Assembly (NCBI GenBank): GCA_017470505.1
Contig: JAFUYO010000026.1
Location: 1-43,846, forward strand
Reading direction: 5' to 3'
Length of the DNA stretch: 43,846 nucleotides
Source of the DNA: Butyrivibrio sp.
Lineage (GTDB): Bacteria > Bacillota > Clostridia > Lachnospirales > Lachnospiraceae
Position numbers and translations under genes: made by a program. The notes beneath the pieces are model-generated. The model was not told where the DNA came from. It did not search any database and was given only the letters and a program-made list of their open reading frames with translations. Of the stretch, positions 4,665 through 43,846 are shown one piece after another; position 1 is the stretch's first letter, and each line of letters opens with the position of its first letter.

Positions 4665-5249
4665 ATGAAAACAGAAATAGTTGCAGTTAACAGTGGCGGT
4701 GAATATCTTCAGACAGCACTGGACAAAATAGAGAGGCTTGCCAAAGACAAGAAGCTCTCTCAGAAGGAGGCACTTAAACTAAGGCTCCTTGCGGAAGAGA
4801 TGTTCACGATGGTCAGGGACATAGCAGGAGAGTTTGACGCCACCTTCTGGGCGGAAGAATTCGGCAATGACTACAAGATCGTCCTTATGGCTGATGTTGT
4901 GGAGGTAACGGAGAACTCTAAAAACGAGCTCATGAAACTCTCGACAAGGGGAGAGGCACCAAGGACTGGCATCATGTCCATGATCGGCAGTATTTTTGAG
5001 CTGCTCATGAAGGGATTTGAAGCTTACAACTTAAACTCCAAGGTGCCATCACTTCAGTACAGCGAACTTGGAATTGAGAAGGATGCAAAAGAGGCAAACA
5101 AGTGGGCGCTCAGCACCTACAGAGCAAACGTCACCGATGACGATGCTATCGATGAGCTTGAGAAATCCATCGTTGCCAATATCGCAGACGATATCGTTGT
5201 GAGCGTAGTAGACCAGAGTGTCAAGGTCGAAATATCAAAAGCGTTCTGA
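4665..5249 (+). CDS. Degenerate HATPase/RsbW-like regulatory protein
   Basis: A 194-residue soluble protein. Residues 31-80 resemble the N-box region of anti-sigma kinases such as RsbW/SpoIIAB (LKLRLLAEEMFTMV...). However, the Mg-ATP-binding Asn of the ExxxN motif appears replaced (E45xxxM49), and I see no DxGxG G1 box. If the assignment is right it has lost kinase activity and would act as a binding partner only. The start ATG 4665 has the SD GAGGGAA. It follows the PP2C phosphatase by 115 bp, with a repeat hairpin between them, suggesting one signalling unit. No STAS-domain antagonist gene is adjacent. The family call is tentative; it could instead be an unrelated alpha/beta protein. Confidence 0.6.
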   Translation: MKTEIVAVNSGGEYLQTALDKIERLAKDKKLSQKEALKLRLLAEEMFTMVRDIAGEFDATFWAEEFGNDYKIVLMADVVEVTENSKNELMKLSTRGEAPRTGIMSMIGSIFELLMKGFEAYNLNSKVPSLQYSELGIEKDAKEANKWALSTYRANVTDDDAIDELEKSIVANIADDIVVSVVDQSVKVEISKAF

Positions 5250-5272
5250 TTAAAGTTTGTTACATTTTTTAC

Positions 5273-5301
5273 TTGTTTTTGAGTGCCATGTTTAATAGAA
5301 T
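5273..5301 (+). promoter_or_regulatory. Candidate carB promoter
   Basis: TTGTTT at 5273-5278 and TAGAAT at 5296-5301 are separated by 17 bp in the short gap between the HATPase-like gene and carB. No PyrR-type attenuator hairpin is evident in the 35 bases before the carB start. Confidence 0.4.
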
Positions 5302-5336
5302 TGTAGGGATGAAAAAAGAAAATATGGGAGGACGAC

Positions 5337-8300
5337 ATGGCACAGAGAACAGATATAAGCAAGGTACTAATAATTGGCTCGGGACCTATTGTCATAGGCC
5401 AGGCCTGTGAGTTTGACTACTCGGGGACGCAGGCCTGCAAGGCACTTCGGAGCCTGGGCTATGAGATCGTTTTGGTCAACTCCAATCCGGCGACCATTAT
5501 GACGGACCCGGAGATGGCGGACAAGACCTATATTGAACCGCTTAATGTAGACCGCGTTTCTGCGGTTATTGAAAAAGAAAGACCGGATGCTCTTCTGCCA
5601 AATCTCGGCGGACAGTCCGGACTTAATCTGTGTTCTGAACTCTATAAAGCCGGCGTTCTCGACAAATACAATGTAAAGGTTATAGGTGTCCAGGTCGATG
5701 CTATTGAGCGTGGTGAAGACAGGACCGAGTTCAAAAAGACGATGGAGAAGCTCGGCATCGGTATGGCCCGGTCGAAGGCCTGCTACAGCATAGAGGAGGC
5801 ACTTGCAGAGGCCGATGAGCTCGGATACCCTGTGGTACTAAGGCCTGCCTACACCATGGGTGGAGCAGGAGGCGGCCTTGTTTACAACAGGGAAGAGCTT
5901 CAGACCGTATGCGCAAGAGGCCTTGCGGCATCCATCATCCACCAGGTTCTCGTCGAGGAGTCGATACTCGGATGGGAGGAGCTTGAGCTCGAGGTTGTCA
6001 GGGACAAGGACGGCAACATGATAACGGTCTGCTTCATCGAGAATGTTGATCCTGTCGGAGTTCACACCGGTGACTCCTTCTGTACGGCGCCCATGCTGAC
6101 AATTTCCGAGGACCTTCAGAAAGAACTCCAGAGACAGGCATACAGCATTGTAGAACATATCGGCGTCATCGGCGGCACGAACGTGCAGTTTGCCCATGAC
6201 CCCGCAACCGGAAGAATAGTTGTAATTGAGATAAATCCGAGGACATCGCGCTCATCGGCACTTGCAAGTAAGGCGACAGGTTTCCCCATTGCCCTGGTTT
6301 CGGCAAAGCTTGCCACAGGACTGACCCTTTCAGAACTTCCCGACTCCAAGTTCGGGACACTTGATAAGTACGTTCCAAACGGAGACTATGTTGTAGTTAA
6401 GTTTGCGCGCTGGGCGTTTGAGAAGTTCCACGGAGTTGAGGACAAGCTGGGAACCCAGATGAGAGCCGTGGGCGAAGTCATGTCGATCGGCAAGAACTTC
6501 AAGGAGGCCTTCCAGAAGGCGATCAGATCCCTGGAGAAGGGCAGGTACGGCCTCGGCAATATCGAAAAATATGAGAAGATGTCCAAAGATGAGATCCTGC
6601 GGCTCTTAAAGGATGCTTCATCAGAGAGATATTTCCTCATTTACGAAGCGATGAAGAAGGGCGTCACAGTCGATGAGATCTTTGATATAACCAGGGTTAA
6701 GCACTATTTCCTTAATGAGATAAAAGAGCTTGTCGAAGAGGAAGAGAGTTTAAAATCTTCCTTCAGGGGAAGCGTTCCATCCGCAGAAGCCCTGAAAAAG
6801 GCCAAGGAAGACGGCTTTGCTGACAGATACCTCTCAGAGATACTCTCTGTTTCAGAGGATGACATCAGAAAGGCGAGAGAGGACAATAACCTGTGTGAGA
6901 GGTGGGACGGCGTTCACGTATACGGAACTGACGGAGCTGCTTACTACTACTCAACTTACCAGAGCGGAAAAGTCCTCGAATCTCCGAGGCTTGACAGCGG
7001 AAGCGGCGCCAAAAAGATAATGATCCTCGGCGGCGGTCCCAACAGGATAGGCCAGGGCATCGAGTTTGACTACTGCTGCGTCCATGCGGCAATGGCCCTG
7101 AAAAAGCTCGGCTTTGAGACTATCATCGTAAACTGCAATCCCGAGACTGTCTCGACAGACTACGACACATCGGACACTCTTTTCTTCGAGCCTCTGACCC
7201 TTGAGGATGTTCTTCAGATATACAGAAAGGAGAAGCCCGTCGGAGTCATTGCGCAGTTTGGAGGACAGACTCCTCTTAACCTCGCTGCCAAGCTGAAGGA
7301 AGAGGGCGTAAATATACTGGGAACCACACCTGAAGTCATAGACCTTGCAGAGGACAGGGATCAGTTCCGCCTCATGATGGAGAAACTCGGGATCCCGATG
7401 GCAGAGTCCGGAATGGCATCTGATGTTGAGACTGCCAAGCAGATAGCTGCAAGGATAGGCTACCCCGTTATGGTGCGTCCTTCGTTTGTCCTTGGCGGCA
7501 GAGGAATGGAGATAGTAAGAGACGAGGACAGCATGGAGGGCTATATGAGAGCCGCTGTAGGCGTAACTCCCGACAGGCCCATCCTCATAGACAGATTTTT
7601 GCACAATGCGCTTGAGTGCGAGGCTGATGCGATAAGTGACGGAAGGCAGGCTTTTGTTCCCGCAGTCATGGAGCACATCGAGCTTGCGGGCATACATTCC
7701 GGAGATTCGGCGTGCATCATCCCAAGTAAGCACATACCTGAAAAGCACTTAAGGACGATAGAGGAGTACACCAGAAAGATCGCCGTAGAGATGAACGTCG
7801 TAGGACTCATGAACATGCAGTACGCTATCGAGGACGATACGGTCTATGTACTCGAGGCAAATCCGAGGGCATCGAGGACAGTTCCTCTTGTATCCAAGGT
7901 TTGCGGCATCAGGATGGTTCCTGTAGCAACCGACATCATAACTTCTAAGCTGACAGGAAGAAAGTCACCTGTGCCTGAACTTATCGCGGCAAAGAGTAAA
8001 GAGAAAGAGCCCGCCTACTACGGAGTTAAAGAGGCGGTATTCCCCTTCAATATGTTCCCTGAGGTTGACCCTGTTCTCGGACCCGAGATGAGGTCTACAG
8101 GAGAGGTCCTGGGACTTGCAAGGACGCCCGGTGAAGCCTTCTTCAAGGCGGAGGAAGCAGCAAATGCGACACTTCCTCTTAAGGGAGCGGTACTGATTTC
8201 CTTAAACAGCGAGGATAAGCCAAGAGCCTGTGAGATAGCTAAGAGCTTTGCAGAGAGCGGCTTTAAGATCTATGCAACAGGAAGGACCTATGAGATTATC

Positions 8301-35472: not shown

Positions 35473-37722
35473 ATGGATGACAAAAATTATGTAGATTCGA
35501 TGCTTGGGATCAATGCTGCTTTTATGAATATTGATTCGGCGATATCAGCCACAGAGACTGCGGAGATGTCGAAAAAAAGGTACAGTTTTTGCTCTGCTGC
35601 TGCAAAGACCGGAATCATAGACACAGCCCTTTTTGGTGTTTTAAAGGCTACGTACTACCTTTTAAGCGCAAACGGCATGGTCCCTGAAAAATATAGCTCA
35701 GAATTATTGAAAACCATTCCTGGAGAAACGCATCAGCAGATGGAAATCGGCAATAAAAAAGAGACGTACACAACTAACAGAGCTGTGCGTATCTACGGGG
35801 TTATGAGTTTTTTGACCAAATACAAACTTTTAAGTGCAGCTGCGATAAATAAGGTCACAGACCCTGTTATAAAAGATGCCATCAGGACAATCGCAACCTC
35901 GAAAAAGACAGTAAAGGCACTTAGCACCTTTGAGAAAGAATATACCAAGTTGAGATTTGACAAGGCTGATTCTCCACTACTCCTTATTAAACATTATTTT
36001 GATATCATGAAGGAAAATAAGGAGGCACTTGCCAGAGGAGAAACAATAAATCTTGGGGATGGAAGGACTATTACCGGGAAAAAGGCAGGAAATGTAGTCT
36101 ACGGTATTATAACCGGTCCCAAAAATACAGTCATAGTGGGACCTGACGGCGAGCCCGAAAATGTTAAAAAGGGAGAGGATCCTGAGAAGGTCATAAAGAG
36201 GAAGGCTGAAGCTGTTAAAAAACCTAAGGATAAGGTAAAAGAGCCCAAAAAGGAAAAAGCGCCTGAAAAGGAGAAGGAGCCTGAGAAGAAGGCAGAGCCC
36301 GAAAAGAAGGCAGAGCCCGAAGAGGAGAAAGAGCCTGAAAAGAAGGCAGAGCCCGAAGAGGAGAAAGAGCCTGAAAAGAAGGCAGAGCCCGAAGAGGAGA
36401 AAGAGCCTGAAAAGAAGGCAGAGCCTGAGAAGGAGAAAGAAGAGAAGAAGGAAGAGCCCAAAGAGGAAGAAAACAAAGAAGAGGACAAAGAAGAAGAGAA
36501 GTTCGAAGTACCTGAAGTAAACGAAGAGGAAAAAGAAGAAAAAATCGAGGTAGTAGAGAAAGAAGAAAAAGAAGAAGAGAAGGTCGAAGAGCCTGAAAAG
36601 AAAGAAGAGCTCAAAGAGGAAGTAGTAGAAAAGGTCGAAGAACCTGAAGAGAAAGAAGAAAAGGTTGAAGAGCTCAAAGAGAAGTCCGAAGAAATAGTAG
36701 AAGAGAGCTTTTTGGTGGAGCAGGAAGACTTTGCTGAGGAGGAAGGATCTCACTTTACTCCTGAGTACATCAAAGGAAAGCTTGAAAACATCAGAACCCT
36801 CTTTATGACAGAGGGGCTCAAGGATAAGAGCGCTCTCAAAGCGGCTGCTAAGAAACCGGGATTTACAAAGAACAGCGAGGCCTATAATGAGTTTTTTGCC
36901 GGTGACGGCGGAAAAGAGTACCGCGAGATGGCAAAGGCCATGAACGACTGCATAAAGCTTTTGGGTGCACCTGCAGGTGATGACTGGTCAGAAAAGGTCA
37001 TGGATGCTTTCAGAAGAGTTAAGGCGGCTGCGAACACATACAGAAAGACTCACAAGAGTGTTCTCAGAGTTGTCGGTGTATCGAGTCACGTCACCAAAGT
37101 GGGCGATGCGAGAGTTAACATAGCCATGCAGCTGATGTATGAGTCCTCTGTATATGAGAATATGATGTCTTCGTACATAGCAAACGGCTCTAAGGACTCA
37201 ACCACAATCAAGGACAGCGACAGGGAAGATGAGACCGAAAGACTCAATAATGTCATGACGCTCAGAAATAAGTACATTAAAAAGCTCTTTTCAAAGAAGC
37301 TGGCACTCTCCAAGACAAGTAAGCAGACGATGATCGCATGGGCAGGTGATGATTCATTTATCAGCGACGAGAATGGCAATTATACCGGACTTCCAAGCGA
37401 TCCTGTCAGAAAAACCGCATACTTTGTTGCAGTAAATAAAATGAGAGAGCTCATGAAAGGTGACATCACAGCAGATCAGATCATGAGTATGGAGAAAGAA
37501 GACCTCGACGATAACGGGTTTAACAGGGACGTCGAGAAGATCGTTAAGGACCCCAAATATGCAGCAGCCTTTAAAAAGTCTAAATCCGGAAAGAAGCAGT
37601 CAGATGCTGAGCTTCAAATGCAGATAATGAATATGAATGGGAATAATCTGCTGAATAATACCATGATGAGCCGTGATCTTAATACCTCGAGGATGTCTGA
37701 TAAGATGACGGACTTTGAATAA
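35473..37722 (+). CDS. Large Lys/Glu/Pro-repeat protein of unknown function
   Basis: A 749-residue protein in three parts. Residues 1-190 are helical and Ala/Lys-rich. Residues about 235-425 are an extremely charged Lys/Glu/Pro/Val linker with three identical 12-residue units (KKAEPEEEKEPE type). Residues 430-749 form a second helical domain (KGKLENIRTLFMTEGLKDKS to the end). There is no signal peptide, membrane segment or Cys motif, so it is probably cytoplasmic. I do not recognise either end domain. SD AAAGGAG. The charged spacer resembles disordered linkers in scaffold-like proteins, which is only an analogy. A terminator follows at 37761. Confidence 0.8.
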   Translation: MDDKNYVDSMLGINAAFMNIDSAISATETAEMSKKRYSFCSAAAKTGIIDTALFGVLKATYYLLSANGMVPEKYSSELLKTIPGETHQQMEIGNKKETYTTNRAVRIYGVMSFLTKYKLLSAAAINKVTDPVIKDAIRTIATSKKTVKALSTFEKEYTKLRFDKADSPLLLIKHYFDIMKENKEALARGETINLGDGRTITGKKAGNVVYGIITGPKNTVIVGPDGEPENVKKGEDPEKVIKRKAEAVKKPKDKVKEPKKEKAPEKEKEPEKKAEPEKKAEPEEEKEPEKKAEPEEEKEPEKKAEPEEEKEPEKKAEPEKEKEEKKEEPKEEENKEEDKEEEKFEVPEVNEEEKEEKIEVVEKEEKEEEKVEEPEKKEELKEEVVEKVEEPEEKEEKVEELKEKSEEIVEESFLVEQEDFAEEEGSHFTPEYIKGKLENIRTLFMTEGLKDKSALKAAAKKPGFTKNSEAYNEFFAGDGGKEYREMAKAMNDCIKLLGAPAGDDWSEKVMDAFRRVKAAANTYRKTHKSVLRVVGVSSHVTKVGDARVNIAMQLMYESSVYENMMSSYIANGSKDSTTIKDSDREDETERLNNVMTLRNKYIKKLFSKKLALSKTSKQTMIAWAGDDSFISDENGNYTGLPSDPVRKTAYFVAVNKMRELMKGDITADQIMSMEKEDLDDNGFNRDVEKIVKDPKYAAAFKKSKSGKKQSDAELQMQIMNMNGNNLLNNTMMSRDLNTSRMSDKMTDFE
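36301..36408 (+). repeat. Three perfect 36-bp tandem repeats within the gene
   Basis: Three identical consecutive copies (36301-36336, 36337-36372, 36373-36408) beginning GAAAAGAAGGCAGAGCCC, flanked by degenerate partial copies. Exact identity at the DNA level, including silent positions, indicates recent expansion, so copy number may vary between strains. Confidence 0.9.
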
Positions 37723-37893: not shown

Positions 37894-37910
37894 ATTAGAT
37901 GAAAGCTGTA

Positions 37911-37984
37911 AAGGTCTCTTTTTTTGAAAACACAGGGAGGTGTTTCATGAGAATACAGCAGAACATGGATGTGCAGAATGGCAT
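37911..37984 (+). repeat. Duplicated translation-start module, copy 1
   Basis: A 74-base segment holding a T tract, CACAGGGAGG, ATG and the first 12 to 13 codons (MRIQQNMDVQNG). It is repeated with about 90 percent identity at 40163-40236. The Shine-Dalgarno GGGAGG is flanked by CAC and GTG arms that could form a small hairpin exposing it in the loop. Confidence 0.85.
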
Positions 37985-38132
37985 TATTATAGATCAGACA
38001 GACGTAAATTCTGCGTCAAAATCCACCCATAGAAATAAAAACAAAAATGAGTCGCCGGAGACGTTTCGCAAGTCACCGGGGACTCAAAAGGTGCTACAGT
38101 TTTTTTTGAATGCGGAAATGGAGGGGAATAAC
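37947..38132 (+). other. In-frame upstream leader or alternative N-terminus
   Basis: ATG 37947 has a perfect SD (GGGAGG, six bases) and reads in frame, without a stop, into the gene starting at 38133. It encodes about 62 residues (MRIQQNMDVQNGIIIDQ...) of polar, low-conservation texture. The first residues look like a flagellin N-terminus. It may be a true N-terminal extension or a captured start module fused to an older gene. Confidence 0.5.
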
Positions 38133-39014
38133 ATGGCAGAATTATATGGAATATCAGCTTATCAGCAGACTTCACAGTCATATGGCGGAAGCAGGGTGCA
38201 GAATAATGACACTAAAGCGCAGAGCGCAGCTAAAAGTGATCAGACTGCAGCTGCTAAGACCTCGCAGACAAAGGTGGAGACAAAGGGATGGTCTCCAATA
38301 GATACGAAGAGCTCACTGGTGCCATCAAAGACGGATATCGGCATGACTATAGGAGATGTTCAGTTATCTGATAAAGCAAAAGATTATCTTTCAAAGCTTC
38401 AATCCAAGTTCCATGGCATGGAGTTTATCACAGTGAGCAAGGATATGAAGGCTCAGGTTCAGCAGAATGCAGCTTCTTATGGTAATGCCAATAAGATGGT
38501 CGTTCTCATTGATGAAGAAAAACTCGAGAGAATGGCAACTGATGAGAACTTCCGCAAAAAGTATGAGGGAATAATCGCTTCCTCCCAGAGTAAGATGATG
38601 CAGGCAAAAATGGGTCTTTCAAGCAGTGGATCAAGTGTCAAAAACTTTGGAATGAGTGTGGACTCCAATGGAAAAGAGAGCTTTTTTGCTACGGTGAATA
38701 AATCTTCCGACCTCCAGAAGAAACGAATTGAGAAAAAGGCAGCTGAGAAGAAACAGCAGAAGATTAAGGAGAAAAAGCAGGCAGAGAAGAAGGCGCAGGA
38801 AGAGCGCATAGAAAAGGCAAAAGAAGGCAAAGCTGATAAAACCGTAGATAAGAAAGACAGAGACATCCCTGAAGAAGAATATGATATCATAGAGGCTAAC
38901 TCCTTGGATGATCTGTTATCAAAGGTTCAGACTTACTCTTATAACAGTGCTTCATCGAGAGTGATGACAGATACAGAAAAAAATGTTGGAACAAAGGTTG
39001 ATTTTAAAGGATGA
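38133..39014 (+). CDS. DUF6033-like Lachnospiraceae protein
   Basis: From ATG 38133 (SD GGAGGGG) a 293-residue protein begins MAELYGISAYQQTSQSYG, as I recall for DUF6033-like proteins of Lachnospiraceae. Residues about 70-190 form the conserved-looking part (LSDKAKDYLSKLQSKFHGME, VVLIDEEKLERMATDENF). Residues 205-255 are a Lys/Glu/Gln-rich coiled coil, and the tail is acidic (EEEYDIIEANSLDDLLSKV). No signal peptide or membrane segment. Function unknown. The frame extends in frame to 37947, where an equally strong start lies behind a sigma-28-like promoter. The next gene follows by 22 bp. Confidence 0.75.
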   Translation: MAELYGISAYQQTSQSYGGSRVQNNDTKAQSAAKSDQTAAAKTSQTKVETKGWSPIDTKSSLVPSKTDIGMTIGDVQLSDKAKDYLSKLQSKFHGMEFITVSKDMKAQVQQNAASYGNANKMVVLIDEEKLERMATDENFRKKYEGIIASSQSKMMQAKMGLSSSGSSVKNFGMSVDSNGKESFFATVNKSSDLQKKRIEKKAAEKKQQKIKEKKQAEKKAQEERIEKAKEGKADKTVDKKDRDIPEEEYDIIEANSLDDLLSKVQTYSYNSASSRVMTDTEKNVGTKVDFKG

Positions 39015-39036: not shown

Positions 39037-40143
39037 ATGAATATATCTTTTAATACTCAAAATCCATATGGTTCATATTATCAGAAGGCTCCTGTTATGG
39101 GGCAGAGCGCGTCCGGAAGATCTGCCAGTGGCGTTCTGCCTTCTATGTCCGGAAATAATAATGCTTCCTCGCCTCTTTCACAGTTCACTAACAAGATTAC
39201 GGATGATAAGCCCTCCATCTCTCAGCAGATGAGGCAGATGATCAGGGATCTCAAACAGGAGCAGTATAAGAATGCTGCGTCGAAGCAGCAGGAAAACGGC
39301 TTTTCCAAACTGTCAGGTTCCCCTGATGCTGCAGAGGACGAAGAAATCGTTACTTCCGAGAAATATAATTACAAAACAGTTGCAACCAGGATACAGCAGG
39401 CAAAAACATCCATCAGCGCAGGCCAGGCTGTTCTTGCTGCAAAGAGAGAAACTTTAAAGCTCAAAAGGAAGATAGCCTCCGGATCAGGTGATGCGGAAGA
39501 ACTTCAGCTCGCCCTTACACATGCAAAACGCATGGAGATGGTAGCCAGGAAAAAGAAACACCACCTCGAGCTTGAAGAGCTTGTAGAGAATACTCAAAAA
39601 AGAGATGAAAGACTTGACGGTCAGAAAGATGTTGCGGCTCAGATGCAGAGCACTCTGGCTTCTTTAGAAGAAGAAAAAATAAGCGAAAAAGAAGATGAAA
39701 TATTTGATGCCAGGGAAGAAATGCTGAACGCGGCCCTTGAGCAGATGCAGGAAGGAAGTGCTTCTTTTTCTGAGGATGAATTGAAAGAACTGAATGAGAT
39801 GATTTCAGAATTCGGAGAGGAAGAGCTGAAAGAACTTGAAGAAGCCATGGAGCTTATGGAAACCATGGAAGTGGTTGATCCGCACATGAGTAAGGCTGAT
39901 CTCGAGGACCTTAAGAGGAAGCACCGCGCAGCCGAAGATAAGGCTATCATGAAAGCTAACATGGAATATCTTAAAGACATGATAAAGCATGAACTTGGAA
40001 AGAACGCTTCCATACCTGGTATGGGCGGCGCAGGAACTTCAATGGCAGCATCCTTTAGCATACCTCAGGGGATGGGAGTGGGAATAGGAGTGGATATCTC
40101 ATCGCCGCAGGTATCGGTGTCATCAATTGATATTCAGGCATAA
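39037..40143 (+). CDS. Coiled-coil-rich hypothetical protein
   Basis: A 368-residue protein. An Asn/Gly/Ser/Tyr-rich N-terminus (MNISFNTQNPYGSYYQKAP) is followed by long charged helices (about 60-320) with heptad character and a Gly/Met/Ser-rich tail (GMGGAGTSMAASFSIPQGMG). No signal peptide, membrane helix or Cys. The tail and N-terminus resemble those of proteins that assemble or are exported by non-Sec routes, but no family is recognised. SD is weak (GGGTGAGG). It lies 22 bp after the DUF6033-like gene and is likely co-expressed with it. Confidence 0.75.
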   Translation: MNISFNTQNPYGSYYQKAPVMGQSASGRSASGVLPSMSGNNNASSPLSQFTNKITDDKPSISQQMRQMIRDLKQEQYKNAASKQQENGFSKLSGSPDAAEDEEIVTSEKYNYKTVATRIQQAKTSISAGQAVLAAKRETLKLKRKIASGSGDAEELQLALTHAKRMEMVARKKKHHLELEELVENTQKRDERLDGQKDVAAQMQSTLASLEEEKISEKEDEIFDAREEMLNAALEQMQEGSASFSEDELKELNEMISEFGEEELKELEEAMELMETMEVVDPHMSKADLEDLKRKHRAAEDKAIMKANMEYLKDMIKHELGKNASIPGMGGAGTSMAASFSIPQGMGVGIGVDISSPQVSVSSIDIQA

Positions 40144-40162
40144 GAGAAAAGGGATCGGGAAA

Positions 40163-40236
40163 ACGGTCGCTTTTTATGAAAGCACAGGGAGGTGTTTCAT
40201 GAGAATACAGCAGAACATTGATGTGCAGAATAGCAT
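40163..40236 (+). repeat. Duplicated translation-start module, copy 2
   Basis: Second copy of the element at 37911-37984, differing at about seven of 74 positions. Here the reading frame from ATG 40199 (MRIQQNIDVQNSIGNR) stops after 16 codons at 40249, so this copy encodes only a short peptide. Confidence 0.85.
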
Positions 40237-40249
40237 AGGGAACAGATAA
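40199..40249 (+). CDS. 16-codon leader-like ORF
   Basis: MRIQQNIDVQNSIGNR with a perfect SD (GGGAGG), identical in its first residues to the leader at 37947. It ends 10 bases before an aldo/keto reductase-like fragment. It may be a translated leader, or a truncated paralogue left by recombination. Confidence 0.4.
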   Translation: MRIQQNIDVQNSIGNR

Positions 40250-40259
40250 GAGGTGTCGG

Positions 40260-40391
40260 ATGAAATACAGAGAGAACAGAAGAACCGGAGATAAGATCAG
40301 TGAGATTGGCATGGGGACTGCTTACATCGCAGAGGCTGAAGTTATGGAGAGTGTGAAAAAGTTAAAAAATGTACTGCATTATGACGGGTAG
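40260..40391 (+). pseudogene. Aldo/keto reductase N-terminal fragment
   Basis: ATG 40260 opens a 43-codon frame beginning MKYRENRRTGDKISEIGMGT. This strongly recalls the first beta-hairpin and strand of aldo/keto reductases (YR..K.G.K.S.IG.GT). The rest of the 300-residue barrel is absent: the frame ends at TAG 40391 after an unrelated-looking VMESVKKLKNVLHYDG. SD-like AAGAGG precedes it. Probably the stump of a deleted gene. Confidence 0.55.
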
Positions 40392-40420
40392 CTGCGTTTA
40401 TGGCGTGTCTGCCCGTCATT

Positions 40421-41329
40421 TTATATTTTATAAAGCTCTTTTGCATTCATAATAAAAACGTACTCCGATGATGATTTATCTTTTAGTGCGCTTGTCTTGC
40501 TGTAGATACCGAAAGGCGCATGCGGGGACTGTGCCCACTTAAAAGTGACAATATCCGGGTGCTTCATGATCTCATGCTCGGGAAGGAAAGCATATCCAAA
40601 ACCGGAAAGAAGAAGTCCGTATGCTTCGTTGGCGTTGGAACATATGGCATTATCCAGATCATCATTTACCGGTACAATGTGTCTGCCGCGAGAAAAGAAG
40701 TTTCCCAGAAGATAAGGCGGGATGGATATTATCTGACGGTATTCCCAGAGATCATCGGTTGTTATCGTCTTATTCTTCCTTTTTTTGACCGCCCCGGCTA
40801 AAGGATGATCCTTGTGCATGGCACAGACAAAGTATTCATCGTGGAGCATGGTAAAGGATATGTCAGGATTGGTAAATTTCGCATCCTTCATGCCTATGAT
40901 GACATCCAGCTGATTATTTACAAGACGGCTTAGGTTTGCGTCTGTCTGATCACTGGAAAACTCCGGAATGACATTGGGATTTGATATCAGCAAGGGCTTA
41001 AGGATCTTGCTTATAAGATTAAGTGCATGTGGATCCATATATCCGATCCTGAGAGAATGTCTTTCTCTTTTCTGAAAACTTGATATCCGTTCCCTGGAGC
41101 GATAGAATGTATCTATCATGGTATTGGCATCCTTAAGGAAGGTTGCACCGACCTTTGTAAGAGTAACGGATCTTGTAGTTCTGCTGAAAAGCTTACATCC
41201 CAGTTCTGTTTCCAATGACTGGATCTGTTTTGTGACAGCAGGCTGTGTGAGACCTAATTGCTCGGATGTCTTCATGTAGTTTAAGGTACCGGCCAGGCTG
41301 ATGAAGCATTCAAGCTGCGAAGTGTTCAT
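40421..41329 (-). CDS. LysR family transcriptional regulator
   Basis: A 302-residue LTTR. The N-terminal winged HTH (residues 1-60; CFISLAGTLNYMKTSEQLG, TQPAVTKQIQSLE) is followed by a linker helix and a periplasmic-binding-like effector domain (about 90-300; EFSSDQTDANLSRLVNNQLD). It is divergent from the Cys-rich peptide operon, with 136 bp of AT-rich DNA between, the standard arrangement for an LTTR that controls its neighbour. The effector is unknown. The terminal HTH and length are complete. Confidence 0.93.
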   Translation of the reverse strand: MNTSQLECFISLAGTLNYMKTSEQLGLTQPAVTKQIQSLETELGCKLFSRTTRSVTLTKVGATFLKDANTMIDTFYRSRERISSFQKRERHSLRIGYMDPHALNLISKILKPLLISNPNVIPEFSSDQTDANLSRLVNNQLDVIIGMKDAKFTNPDISFTMLHDEYFVCAMHKDHPLAGAVKKRKNKTITTDDLWEYRQIISIPPYLLGNFFSRGRHIVPVNDDLDNAICSNANEAYGLLLSGFGYAFLPEHEIMKHPDIVTFKWAQSPHAPFGIYSKTSALKDKSSSEYVFIMNAKELYKI

Positions 41330-41465
41330 ATAGGGACTCTCCTTGATTTATTCCATATATTTATAAATAATAACATATATTCATTTCACAGTACAGGATT
41401 TTGCTGTTAAAGTGTATTTGTAAATCAAACATACACAGCAGAAAACTGCGGAAAGGAAGGACATT
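41330..41465. promoter_or_regulatory. Divergent regulatory region of the LysR/peptide cluster
   Basis: 136 bp of very AT-rich sequence between the two divergent genes. The segment CCATATATTTATAAATAATAACATATATTC (41354-41383) contains an interrupted dyad (ATATAT...ATATAT) and TNA-type half-sites suitable for an LTTR. No unambiguous -35/-10 pair for the peptide gene stands out. A strong SD (GGAAAGGAAGG) precedes ATG 41466. Confidence 0.45.
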
Positions 41466-41684
41466 ATGGCACTTACGAATTTATCCGGATGGAACGAGAG
41501 TGAAGATCGGAAGGCTATGGCAGCTTGTGGGACGGCATGCGGAGCAGCAAAGCCCGAAGAAGCACCTGCATCAGCATGCGGGGCATCTGCACCCGAGGAA
41601 GCACCTGCATCAGCATGCGGGGCATCTGCACCTGAGGAGAAGCCTGCATCAGCCTGTGGCAGTGCCTGCGGAGCTTCAAAGTAA
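41466..41684 (+). CDS. ACGX-repeat peptide, predicted RiPP precursor
   Basis: A 72-residue peptide: an 18 to 19 residue leader-like start (MALTNLSGWNESEDRKAM) and a core of six Ala-Cys-Gly motifs (C21, C25, C38, C51, C64, C68). C25, C38, C51 and C64 are spaced exactly 13 residues apart by the unit PEEAPASACGASA. Both ends carry a doubled motif (ACGTACGA and ACGSACGA), giving a symmetrical layout. There are no other Cys and few hydrophobic residues. It is followed 29 bp later by a radical SAM/SPASM gene. From memory this matches the NCBIfam/TIGRFAM 'ACGX-repeat peptide' paired with a dedicated radical SAM protein. The Cys residues are the probable modification sites (inference). Confidence 0.9.
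   Translation: MALTNLSGWNESEDRKAMAACGTACGAAKPEEAPASACGASAPEEAPASACGASAPEEKPASACGSACGASK
41553..41663 (+). repeat. 39-bp tandem repeats in the precursor gene
   Basis: Units at 41553-41591 and 41592-41630 are nearly identical, and a third, diverged copy starts at 41631. Each encodes PEE(A/K)PASACG(A/S)SA-like residues. The near identity at silent positions points to recent duplication and probable copy-number variation. Confidence 0.88.
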
Positions 41685-41713
41685 AAGATTTTTCAGAACA
41701 GGAGGAAGGATCC

Positions 41714-42778
41714 ATGGGTCAGTATTTTGCATTTCAATGGCATATTACGGAAGAATGCGACCAGCGCTGCAAGCACTGCTATATATTTGCGGAGAATTCA
41801 TGCAAGAAGCTGGGCAGCATGTCATGGGATGAAATGCAACAGGTAGTGAAGAATGTGGAGGAGTTCTGCAGAACCTATGGAAGGCTACCGTATTTTTACA
41901 TTACCGGTGGTGACCCGATCCTTCATCCTGACTTCTGGAAACTGATGGAGTTGTTAAAGGGAAAATCCATTCCCTTTACCATACTGGGGAATCCATTTCA
42001 TTTAACGGATGAAAACCTGAAAAGATTAAAAGAATGCGGATGTGATAAGTACCAGCTTTCGATTGACGGAATGAGGCAGACACATGACTGGTTCAGAAAG
42101 CCGGGGTCTTTCGACGAGACGATCGAAAAGATCGGGATGATAAGGGATGCCGGAATTACGGCGGTGGTGATGACAACAGTATCCTCCGTGAATATAAAAG
42201 AGGTTCCGGACATCATAGACACTGTTGTAAAGGCAAAAGCGGACGTCTTTGCATTTGCAAGGTATGTCCCTACAAGTGATGAGAAGAGCACAGGTATAAG
42301 TCCCATGGAATACAGGGAGCTTCTTAAAGCCTGTGATAATAAATATAAAGAATATGAGAATGATCCGGAGTGTGTCACGTATTTTAACCGCAAGGATCAT
42401 CTTTGGACACTGTATCAGTATGAGACCGGAGATTTTAAGACTCCGGAAACTGCAAAAGAAGGCATAATATACGGCGGGTGCAATTGCGGAAACTGCCATA
42501 TTACGATACTTCCCACGGGTGAAGTCTATGCATGCAGAAGAGTGGCAGACAGTAAGGTAGGAAACGTATTTGAAGACCGACTGAAAGATTTATGGATTAA
42601 GCAGATGGAAAAATACCGTGACTATGATAGGTTCACTAAGTGCAGCAAGTGCAGGCTGCTTGCATGGTGCAGGGGATGTCCGGCTGTGGCTAAGGGAACC
42701 TATGGAGACTTTTATGCTGAGGATCCACAGTGTTGGTTAGCTACGAGTCCATGCAAATCTCATCTGATAACCGGATAG
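41714..42778 (+). CDS. Radical SAM/SPASM peptide maturase (ACGX system)
   Basis: A 354-residue radical SAM enzyme, the predicted modifier of the upstream Cys-rich peptide. C15, C19 and C22 (EECDQRCKHCYIF) form the SAM cluster motif and YITGGDP is the SAM-binding GGE-like motif. The SPASM region holds CNCGNC, VYACRR, then CSKCRLLAWCRGC and a final DPQCW, enough cysteines for two auxiliary clusters. SD AGGAGGAAGG before ATG 41714, 29 bp after the peptide. Related enzymes make thioether or carbon-carbon crosslinks in RiPPs; the chemistry here cannot be read from sequence. The stop codon lies inside a 12-bp inverted repeat. Confidence 0.92.
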   Translation: MGQYFAFQWHITEECDQRCKHCYIFAENSCKKLGSMSWDEMQQVVKNVEEFCRTYGRLPYFYITGGDPILHPDFWKLMELLKGKSIPFTILGNPFHLTDENLKRLKECGCDKYQLSIDGMRQTHDWFRKPGSFDETIEKIGMIRDAGITAVVMTTVSSVNIKEVPDIIDTVVKAKADVFAFARYVPTSDEKSTGISPMEYRELLKACDNKYKEYENDPECVTYFNRKDHLWTLYQYETGDFKTPETAKEGIIYGGCNCGNCHITILPTGEVYACRRVADSKVGNVFEDRLKDLWIKQMEKYRDYDRFTKCSKCRLLAWCRGCPAVAKGTYGDFYAEDPQCWLATSPCKSHLITG

Positions 42779-42809
42779 GCAAGCTTGCATGGATAGACGG
42801 TTATCAGAT
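42762..42809 (+). repeat. Inverted repeat over the maturase stop codon
   Basis: ATCTGATAACCG (42762-42773) and CGGTTATCAGAT (42798-42809) pair perfectly over 12 bp around a 24-base loop that contains the TAG stop (42776-42778). No T run follows, so it is more likely an RNA-stability, processing or attenuation element than a terminator. The 83 bases up to the next gene hold only imperfect GC-rich repeats and an SD. Confidence 0.8.
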
Positions 42810-42892
42810 CGGATGTATATGGCGACAGCCATCAAGCGAGATGCAGCGGAGCGGAATCGAGCTTGGGCATGGACGAAAGGAGAGATGGGAGC

Positions 42893-43480
42893 ATGAGTAA
42901 AGAGATTCTGAATATCATGAAGGAGCGACGCTCTATCAGAAAGTACACGGATCAGAGGTTAAATGAGGAAGACCTTAATAAGATCATTGAAGCCGGTCTG
43001 TATGCCCCAAATGCCGGCGGCGGTCAGCGGAGCATGCTGGTGGTCATGAATGACAGGGAACTTGTGGAGAAAATCGGGAGACTGAATGCCGGATGTATGA
43101 GAAGAGATAAGTTAGCCGGAGGATACGTATCTGCCGATCAGCCCTCACTGATAGATGACCCGACAATTAAGAGCGGATTTTACGGGGCTCCGACGGTCGT
43201 TGCCGTATTTGCGCAGAAAAGATTTCTCTATAATATCCCGGACGCGTTCTGTTGTGCCGAGAACATGGTGCTCGAAGCATATGATCTTGGAATAGCTTCC
43301 TGCATTGTGGCAAGAGGCGAGGAAACCTTTATGACGCCGGAGGGACTTGAATATCTCAAAAAATGGAACGTACCTGAAAATATGGAGTGTAAGTGCTTTG
43401 TCCTTTTGGGGTACGTAGACGGAGAATATCCGGGCATCAAGGAAAGACGGGTTGGAAGAGTGATGGTGGTAACGGAATGA
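42893..43480 (+). CDS. Nitroreductase family FMN oxidoreductase
   Basis: A 195-residue FMN enzyme. The N-terminal MKERRSIRKYTDQ is the family FMN-phosphate/arginine motif, followed by EAGLYAPNAGGGQRS and a C-terminal VLLGYVDGEYPG. The start is ATG 42893 with SD GATGGGAG; an in-frame TTG at 42863 is less likely. Members use NAD(P)H to reduce nitro, quinone or other groups, or perform dehydrogenations in RiPP pathways (the azoline oxidases are relatives). Its place in the ACGX cluster, overlapping the next flavin gene by 4 bp, suggests a tailoring or redox role on the peptide or maturase (inference). Confidence 0.9.
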   Translation: MSKEILNIMKERRSIRKYTDQRLNEEDLNKIIEAGLYAPNAGGGQRSMLVVMNDRELVEKIGRLNAGCMRRDKLAGGYVSADQPSLIDDPTIKSGFYGAPTVVAVFAQKRFLYNIPDAFCCAENMVLEAYDLGIASCIVARGEETFMTPEGLEYLKKWNVPENMECKCFVLLGYVDGEYPGIKERRVGRVMVVTE

Positions 43481-43846
43481 ACAGACAGGGTGTGGATGAT
43501 GTTGTAAGTATGCTTGAAAGATACCCTATGCAGTATATAGGAGTTATCGGCAGAGACGGAAAACCAAAGGTAAAGCCGTTTGAGTTTAAGTATGAAGAAA
43601 ACGGAAAGCTATGGTTTGACGTAATGAGAAATCAGGAGACTTATCGGGAACTTTTGGAAAATCCGTATATTGAGCTTACTGTTGCTGATAGAGATACAAC
43701 CCAGTGGATAAGGATCGATGGAAGGGTACGGTTTGTTGATGATGAGAATATCAGGAAAAAGGTGATCGCTTCCAGCCCGGTTCTTAAAAAGGTATGTGGA
43801 AGTGAAGATAATACAGACGTGCTCCCCTTTACGCTGGATGATGTTA
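43477..43846 (+). CDS. PPOX-like FMN split-barrel protein, partial
   Basis: ATG 43477 overlaps the nitroreductase stop (ATGA). The visible 123 codons (MNRQGVDDVVSMLERYPMQY, IGVIGRDGKPKVKPFEFKYE, ELTVADRDTTQWIRIDGRVRF) are typical of pyridoxamine-5'-phosphate-oxidase-like FMN-binding split-barrel proteins. The gene runs off the window's right end with most of its expected 130-150 residues seen. Such proteins bind FMN or F420 and reduce or protect small molecules. Together with the nitroreductase it puts two flavoproteins behind the peptide maturase. Confidence 0.87.
   Translation, partial: MNRQGVDDVVSMLERYPMQYIGVIGRDGKPKVKPFEFKYEENGKLWFDVMRNQETYRELLENPYIELTVADRDTTQWIRIDGRVRFVDDENIRKKVIASSPVLKKVCGSEDNTDVLPFTLDDV

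Follow-up and report, generated by a model that had tools for sequence, protein, structure and literature searches.

What might a small peptide with repeated Ala-Cys-Gly (ACG) motifs do for a bacterial cell, and which partners act on it? This question is raised by one end of contig JAFUYO010000026.1 from Butyrivibrio sp. (assembly GCA_017470505.1), a stretch of 43,846 nucleotides (hereafter “the window”), which is the whole contig (positions 1–43846) within an assembly of 2.75 Mb and 56 contigs that is 84% complete; position 43846 is taken as the contig end, since no later contig position was ever matched. The window carries an operon of the ACGX system, i.e., a gene for an ACG-repeat peptide (acgA) followed by the gene of a radical S-adenosylmethionine (SAM) maturase (acgM) and two flavoprotein genes. 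The pair itself is already known as a predicted system; what is new is its operon-level link, in relatives of the window, to class-M sirtuins (SirTM) and Zn-Macro-type macrodomains. We tentatively propose, at somewhat less than an even chance, that AcgA would be an intracellular Cys carrier, which is modified by the radical SAM enzyme AcgM and works together with flavoproteins; in most relatives, ADP-ribosylation would act as its switch.

The comparison rests on a scan of species genomes for maturase relatives, which gave 220, the best 80 of them being numbered L001–L080; L007 was removed as a near-duplicate of L006, which leaves 79 named relatives. Regulators were counted at the 69 loci that extend 1.5 kb or more upstream, the reductase slot at the 75 that extend 1.2 kb or more downstream, and PPOX, SirTM and macrodomain genes at the 57 that extend 4.5 kb or more downstream. 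In a survey of shared genes, 14 gene clusters recurred in at least 7 of 89 neighbourhoods; they were read by eye, and the simple choice of open reading frames (ORFs) can miss genes. Three clusters of the survey, which by inspection are antisense ORFs of the genes for the peptide, HxlR and PPOX, were ignored.

The acgA-acgM Operon Core

The peptide gene (41466–41684, plus strand) encodes an AcgA-type protein of 72 amino acids (aa) with the leader MALTNLSGWN and six ACG motifs, which scores 47.8 bits against TIGR04341 (“ACGX-repeat peptide”; cut-off 28). After a gap of 29 nucleotides (nt) follows the predicted peptide maturase, an AcgM-type radical SAM/SPASM protein of 354 aa (41714–42778, plus strand), with 594.2 bits against TIGR04340 (“rSAM_ACGX”, radical SAM/SPASM domain protein, ACGX system; cut-off 400) and matches above cut-off to PF04055 and PF13186, the SPASM domain lying at residues 256–322. 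Both proteins exceed the curated cut-offs, in agreement with the name “ACGX system” given in the original prediction, and by these matches the window carries an acgA-acgM operon core. On the same strand lie a nitroreductase-family protein of the flavin mononucleotide (FMN) type (42893–43480; PF00881, 75.3 bits, above cut-off) and a PPOX-type FMN split-barrel protein (43477–43846; PF01243, 44.2 bits, above cut-off), which is open at the contig end after 123 codons. The nitroreductase is separated from the maturase by 114 nt if it starts at the inferred ATG at 42893, or by 84 nt with an alternative TTG start at 42863, and its ORF overlaps that of PPOX by 4 nt. The divergent neighbour is a LysR-type regulator (40421–41329, minus strand; ORF of 302 aa; PF00126, 66 bits, and PF03466, 50.9 bits, both above cut-off). 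ORF positions and profiles thus bear out the gene list that had been read from the letters, from LysR to PPOX. This layout, with co-directional peptide, maturase, nitroreductase and PPOX genes and a divergent regulator, is kept in dozens of species.

AcgA is built as an array of repeats behind a very short leader. In a scripted scan, 77 of the 79 relatives have an ACG peptide ahead of the maturase; L055 has a minimal form of 28 aa with one CG, which was found by eye, and no peptide was scored at L039, where only 82 nt of upstream DNA are present. The 77 scored peptides, some of them cut at contig ends, contain 2 to 10 CG motifs. Among the 70 complete ones, 440 of 442 Cys residues precede Gly and Ala stands before CG in 431 of these 440 cases, the motifs are mostly spaced by 4 (170) or 13 residues (145), and a Trp is found ahead of the first motif in every peptide (70/70). 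No Cys-repeat peptide was seen near the distant TIGR04340 relatives L163–L165.

SirTM and Zn-Macro Genes in ACGX Relatives

Of the 57 loci, 45 carry a co-directional gene for a macrodomain and/or a sirtuin no more than about 4.5 kb downstream; a macrodomain is present at 40, a sirtuin at 44 and both at 39, in the order macrodomain-sirtuin at 35 loci and reversed at 4. The L002 macrodomain reaches 306.1 bits against NF003163 (“protein-ADP-ribose hydrolase”; cut-off 272). A Cx4HxC Zn-loop and an Asp/His dyad are invariant in 7/7 aligned macrodomain rows, the two features by which Zn-Macros are defined in a section of PMC11490716. The macrodomain profile matches PDB 8rsi with an E-value of 1.2e-103, and PDB 8rsn is matched by sirtuin and macrodomain profiles alike. 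For the sirtuin profile (6 rows), PDB 5a3a, which is named SIR2 family protein there and which we take to be SpySirTM, gives an E-value of 1.3e-74. All aligned sirtuin rows (6/6) carry QG instead of HG, a replacement that is described as the mark of class-M sirtuins in part of PMC4518038.

Neither gene is in range at 12 of the 57 loci, but 11 of these genomes encode a SirTM, the copy of L028 being a divergent neighbour. For 22 loci with short downstream DNA, a SirTM was found in 16 genomes, which gives SirTM in 71 of the 78 genomes examined (44 + 11 + 16; L024, with a macrodomain only, was left out). A less biased sample than the maturase relatives is provided by 295 genomes of the window's order, 18 of which exceed the TIGR04340 cut-off (the window's own genome included). 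Here SirTM occurs in 10 of 17 ACGX genomes compared to 66 of 277 others if the own genome is excluded (Fisher p 0.003), and in 10 of 18 ACGX genomes if it is included (p 0.009); in 7 of the 10 genomes with both, SirTM and ACGX lie within a few kb on one contig.

A tree of 90 SirTM proteins was calculated after 7 rows had been dropped (four long branches, one duplicate, two broken contigs) and one had been relabelled as linked. It contains 13 changes between ACGX-linked and unlinked proteins, at least 7 of them forced by supported branches with a bootstrap that had not settled, while a quick preliminary tree with 97 rows gave 15 changes, at least 6 of them forced; such counts of label changes cannot separate gain from loss. 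The SirTM of L002 groups, in a clade with support, among proteins that are otherwise unlinked, and the copies from L027 and L192 belong to a divergent lineage. Because these proteins are placed in separate parts of the tree, different SirTM lineages are linked to ACGX.

The AcgM Maturase and Its Predicted Chemistry

AcgM very probably modifies AcgA. The CxxxCxxC motif and seven further Cys residues in the C-terminal part are invariant in 67/67 aligned maturase rows. The second-best curated family for the window maturase is SbtM (TIGR04082), with 185.1 bits under a cut-off of 350, and SbtM is also the next-best family for four more distant maturase relatives. The models of the mycofactocin maturase (TIGR03962; 77.8 bits, cut-off 265) and the ranthipeptide maturase PapB (NF047865; 71.2 bits, cut-off 340) are not reached by the window maturase, which is also far under the cut-offs of the sactipeptide maturase models. 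SbtM itself was detected in 0 of 299 genomes of the phylum at E 1e-60, but 14 controls were equally silent, so that absence is not shown by this count.

SbtM takes four hydrogens from Cys or selenocysteine (Sec) peptides, and a thiooxazole was identified by nuclear magnetic resonance, as reported in part of PMC11002830. A thiooxazole is the first guess for the ACG sites, since SbtM is the nearest other curated family. The SbtM/SbtA thio(seleno)oxazole system acts on Cys/Sec of a precursor, according to the same part of PMC11002830, but the window maturase differs from SbtM by its score below the cut-off. Another resemblance is found in the captophorins and oxazolin, for which sections of PMC13097082 describe a small peptide with repeated Cys-Gly, a thiooxazole and a link to oxidative or metal stress; however, these are made by MNIO enzymes, i.e., iron-dependent oxidative enzymes with partner proteins, and not by a radical SAM enzyme. 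As a separate observation, about 130 bp of the window between the maturase end and the nitroreductase (42737–42876) are missing in the otherwise 97–99% identical L001, and the C-terminal tail of the maturase differs.

Two Flavoproteins Beside the Pair

The original prediction would have been refuted by flavoproteins missing beside most other ACGX pairs, which is not what the loci show. Among the relatives, a nitroreductase accompanies the pair at 49 of 75 loci, and a PPOX gene lies within 3.2 kb at 44 of 57. The nitroreductase slot is taken by a PIG3/QOR-type reductase at 19 of the 75 loci; both enzymes occur together at none (0/75), and 7 have neither. The identity of the alternative enzyme rests on the L036 copy, which matches ADH_N and ADH_zinc_N of Pfam and scores 150 bits against TIGR02824, below the cut-off of 296.8. 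A second radical SAM enzyme had been considered for this slot and was rejected, as the L036 profiles make the cluster a PIG3/QOR-type NAD(P)H reductase.

The exchange of nitroreductase and quinone-reductase-like enzymes would fit better with a general NAD(P)H-reductase role than with a specific step that oxidises the peptide a second time. Of the two functions that had been suggested for the flavoproteins, a second redox step on the peptide is therefore less favoured, and a dedicated electron supply may still apply. An AlphaFold model of the nitroreductase (mean pLDDT 91.4) has its best PDB match in 3ek3, a nitroreductase of B. fragilis with FMN (E 3.4e-17). An azoline-dehydrogenase role is not favoured, because ordinary nitroreductases match the model first; no protein named azoline dehydrogenase is found among the best 50 of 362 structure matches. 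An earlier model built from 5 sequences was poor (69.3) and was not used.

The PPOX protein exists in two forms: 48 of 59 PPOX matches carry a C-terminal ferredoxin-like motif, and the 11 without it comprise L001–L006 and some others, including fragments. L001 carries a complete homologue of the window PPOX, and by comparison the latter, the C-terminus of which lies beyond the contig end, is probably the short form without the ferredoxin part.

Regulator and Upstream DNA

Among the 69 loci with sufficient upstream DNA, the divergent regulator is HxlR in 57, LysR in 7 and neither in 5. Judged by these assignments, LysR is special to the clade of the window, where it replaces the HxlR of most relatives, and the earlier suggestion of an induction by a small signal, which was drawn from the LysR gene, does not hold for ACGX loci in general. 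In the HxlR alignment (45 rows), one Cys is kept in all 44 rows that have a letter at this position, a pattern that suggests sensing of redox changes or electrophiles. The HxlR of L012 is nearest to RrpB and RrpA, two curated redox regulators, below their cut-offs.

The divergent intergenic region of the window (41330–41465) contains the presumed operon promoter. It has promoter-like matches on the plus strand at 41343–41371 and 41385–41413, but such matches are no more frequent than in shuffles (6 in the scanned region compared to a shuffle mean of 7.4), and the terminator scan likewise gave no excess. No Rfam match was found in 40100–43846. Behind the LysR gene lies a terminator-like stretch (40381–40422), an 83% identical copy of which directly follows PPOX in L001 (5693–5733); the L001 operon therefore probably ends at PPOX.

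Distribution and Surroundings of the Locus

None of 14 control genomes exceeds the TIGR04340 cut-off, nor do the nine congeners of the window's genome in the order sample. The carriers of ACGX include many gut and rumen anaerobes, as well as plasmids and one methanogen. An independent NCBI annotation of a Roseburia plasmid gives the same order of genes: acgA, acgM, nitroreductase, 4Fe-4S protein, protein-ADP-ribose hydrolase and Sir2. The gene names acgM and acgA are used on NZ_CP135163.

The archaeal copy (L197) is located on a plasmid of Methanosphaera sp. ISO3-F5 (NZ_CP118754, 5670–8024) and consists of a helix-turn-helix gene on the minus strand, an ACG-repeat peptide with the leader “LNSWNE” and a maturase that is annotated in two pieces; a zinc-type dehydrogenase occupies the nitroreductase slot, a 4Fe-4S protein gene is divergent, and BREX genes follow about 3 kb on. 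At L005, from a metagenome-assembled genome that is assigned to a different phylum (Spirochaetales), the maturase is 83% and the LysR protein 73% identical to that of the window, suggesting lateral transfer or a misbinned contig. Two contigs are labelled as viral: one of 24 kb (L194), on which both peptide and maturase are present, and one of 504 kb (L195; IMGVR_UViG_3300028886_000026), which encodes a maturase relative of 51% identity at 4941–6026 and has no ACG peptide in the 11 kb examined.

The cluster had also been expected to continue past the window. In line with this, PPOX is cut by the contig end, but the continuations known from L001 and L002 do not turn up elsewhere in the window's own assembly: no DNA resembling the L002 continuation was found there, and the L001 DNA beyond the window end matched only at the window end and at a short repeat. 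On the other side of the operon, the window contains an ORF of 749 aa with a long Lys/Glu/Pro-rich repeat stretch (35473–37722), which is followed by two more uncharacterised ORFs (37899–39014 and 39037–40143).

Discussion

The window shares with the ACGX system, as it is curated in TIGR04340 and TIGR04341 (target_ACGX), a peptide and a maturase above their cut-offs, the gene order, the close spacing and the nitroreductase neighbour. It differs from most ACGX loci by LysR in place of HxlR, by a PPOX that is probably free of ferredoxin, and by the lack of any SirTM or Zn-Macro found in its assembly. For the majority of loci, the best comparison is offered by the extended SirTM operon of staphylococci and streptococci, which comprises GcvH-L, LplA2, SirTM, Zn-Macro and the flavin oxidoreductases OYE and LLM, as described in sections of PMC4518038 and PMC11490716. 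According to these sections, SirTM adds and Zn-Macro removes ADP-ribose on the lipoyl carrier GcvH-L, and lipoylation comes first; moreover, Zn-Macros can cleave Cys-ADP-ribose, and the lipoyl group is discussed as a redox scavenger (PMC4518038, PMC11490716). For SirTM/Zn-Macro systems other than the GcvH-L operon, PMC11490716 describes the targets as unknown. ACGX relatives likewise combine a QG class-M sirtuin and a Cx4HxC Zn-Macro in one operon with a sulfur-bearing small protein, a predicted modifying enzyme and two oxidoreductases; however, the carrier is a Cys-repeat peptide and the modifier a radical SAM enzyme. Since neither GcvH-L nor a lipoate ligase was recognised by eye among the clusters found in at least 7 of the 89 ACGX neighbourhoods, the ACGX operon resembles the GcvH-L operon in its architecture and is not a member of the family. 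It might represent a third type of SirTM operon: a ribosomal Cys-repeat peptide made by a radical SAM enzyme would replace GcvH-L and be controlled inside the cell by ADP-ribosylation, an idea that we advance with considerable reservation. In the open-licence literature, no paper was found that joins ACGX to ADP-ribosylation, and the papers which mention both “radical SAM” and “macrodomain” treat other subjects by their titles; “radical SAM” has no occurrence in the SirTM papers PMC4518038 and PMC11490716.

A mechanism along these lines would start with AcgM, which might oxidatively modify the Cys of each ACG motif; as a first guess, this modification would be of the thiooxazole type, with a loss of about 4 Da per site. 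AcgA would then remain intracellular and act as a small carrier for reactive sulfur groups, to which the nitroreductase (or its quinone-reductase-like substitute) and the PPOX flavoprotein could give, or from which they could take, electrons. In most relatives, SirTM would add ADP-ribose to the modified AcgA, and Zn-Macro would remove it. The whole operon would be a device against redox or electrophile stress. We give the intracellular redox carrier close to an even chance, whereas AcgA as the target of SirTM is a more doubtful suggestion.

A Cys-repeat precursor adjoining a SPASM radical SAM enzyme is what would be expected for a classical ribosomally synthesized and post-translationally modified peptide, which would be trimmed and exported to bind metal or act against bacteria, with thiooxazoles or thioethers made by AcgM as in captophorins or sactipeptides. 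SbtM as the next-best maturase family agrees with this, and so do the captophorin precursors, which repeat Cys-Gly (EGKCG) and lose four hydrogens per repeat (PMC13097082, in part). However, no peptidase was recognised by eye among the 14 shared clusters, and the only exporter-like genes were one cluster of ATP-binding cassette (ABC) ATPases, present in 10 of 89 neighbourhoods and scattered from −6.6 to +9.6 kb; rarer or diverse genes of either kind would be missed by this reading. As no exporter or peptidase gene is seen conserved beside AcgA, the peptide may stay in the cell. The low scores with the sactipeptide and ranthipeptide models also speak against a classical peptide of this kind, which we consider unlikely. 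That no conserved peptidase was seen also bears on a pathway from peptide to small redox cofactor, as for mycofactocin or pyrroloquinoline quinone, in which nitroreductase and PPOX would be dehydrogenases that use or finish the cofactor. Peptide, SPASM enzyme and conserved flavoproteins in one operon would suit such a pathway, but the repeated motifs (one only in L055) are unlike a single-site cofactor precursor, and the mycofactocin maturase model is missed by a wide margin, so that we consider a cofactor very improbable.

The flavoproteins could also merely reduce the cluster of AcgM, with SirTM and Zn-Macro as an unrelated stress module under the same regulator. The ferredoxin-like part on most PPOX proteins, the interchangeable nitroreductase and quinone-reductase-like enzymes and the occurrence of SirTM pairs in other redox settings all speak for this explanation. 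It accounts less well for the PPOX of the window's clade (L001–L006), which is without the ferredoxin part, and for the 7 of 75 loci with neither reductase; a mere neighbour module explains the linkage of different SirTM lineages less well, too. On balance, it appears rather unlikely. Our proposal of an ADP-ribosylated carrier nevertheless has to face a number of observations that weigh against it. The window's own assembly has neither a Zn-Macro nor a SirTM (best score 34.7 bits), and L001, the maturase of which is 98% identical, shows other reading frames after PPOX on visual inspection; no SirTM was found in its genome. SirTM is likewise not found in the genomes of L003, L006, L045, L046, L050 and L078, nor in 7 of the 17 ACGX genomes of the order sample. 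The LysR clade is mixed in this respect: L002 has both genes, L003 and L004 show the start of a macrodomain at the contig end, and L005, L006 and L032 have neither nearby. Because several ACGX genomes are without SirTM, the SirTM/Zn-Macro pair is frequent and not obligatory, and the ADP-ribosylation step may be missing in the window's species. Conversely, 20 SirTM/Zn-Macro loci of the same order (L142–L161) occur without ACGX, and the pair may therefore act on another target. Their surroundings differ from locus to locus, in several cases with a regulator or flavoproteins; PPOX, HxlR, ferredoxin-nitroreductase or Rrf2-like frames (the last recognised by inspection, with no profile match) are sometimes among them, which makes SirTM/Zn-Macro a module of several redox settings. 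The chemistry of AcgM is only a guess as well, since its SbtM score is far under the cut-off (185 compared to 350), and the open-licence literature yielded no experiment with an ACGX system.

The ACGX family has curated models and yet no function in the open-licence papers that were searched. The repeated linkage of the genes makes AcgA one shared, testable candidate both for the function of ACGX and for the target of SirTM and Zn-Macro. Given that many anaerobes from gut and rumen carry ACGX, and that copies also occur on plasmids and in a methanogen, the system may be a common means by which strict anaerobes cope with redox or electrophile stress.

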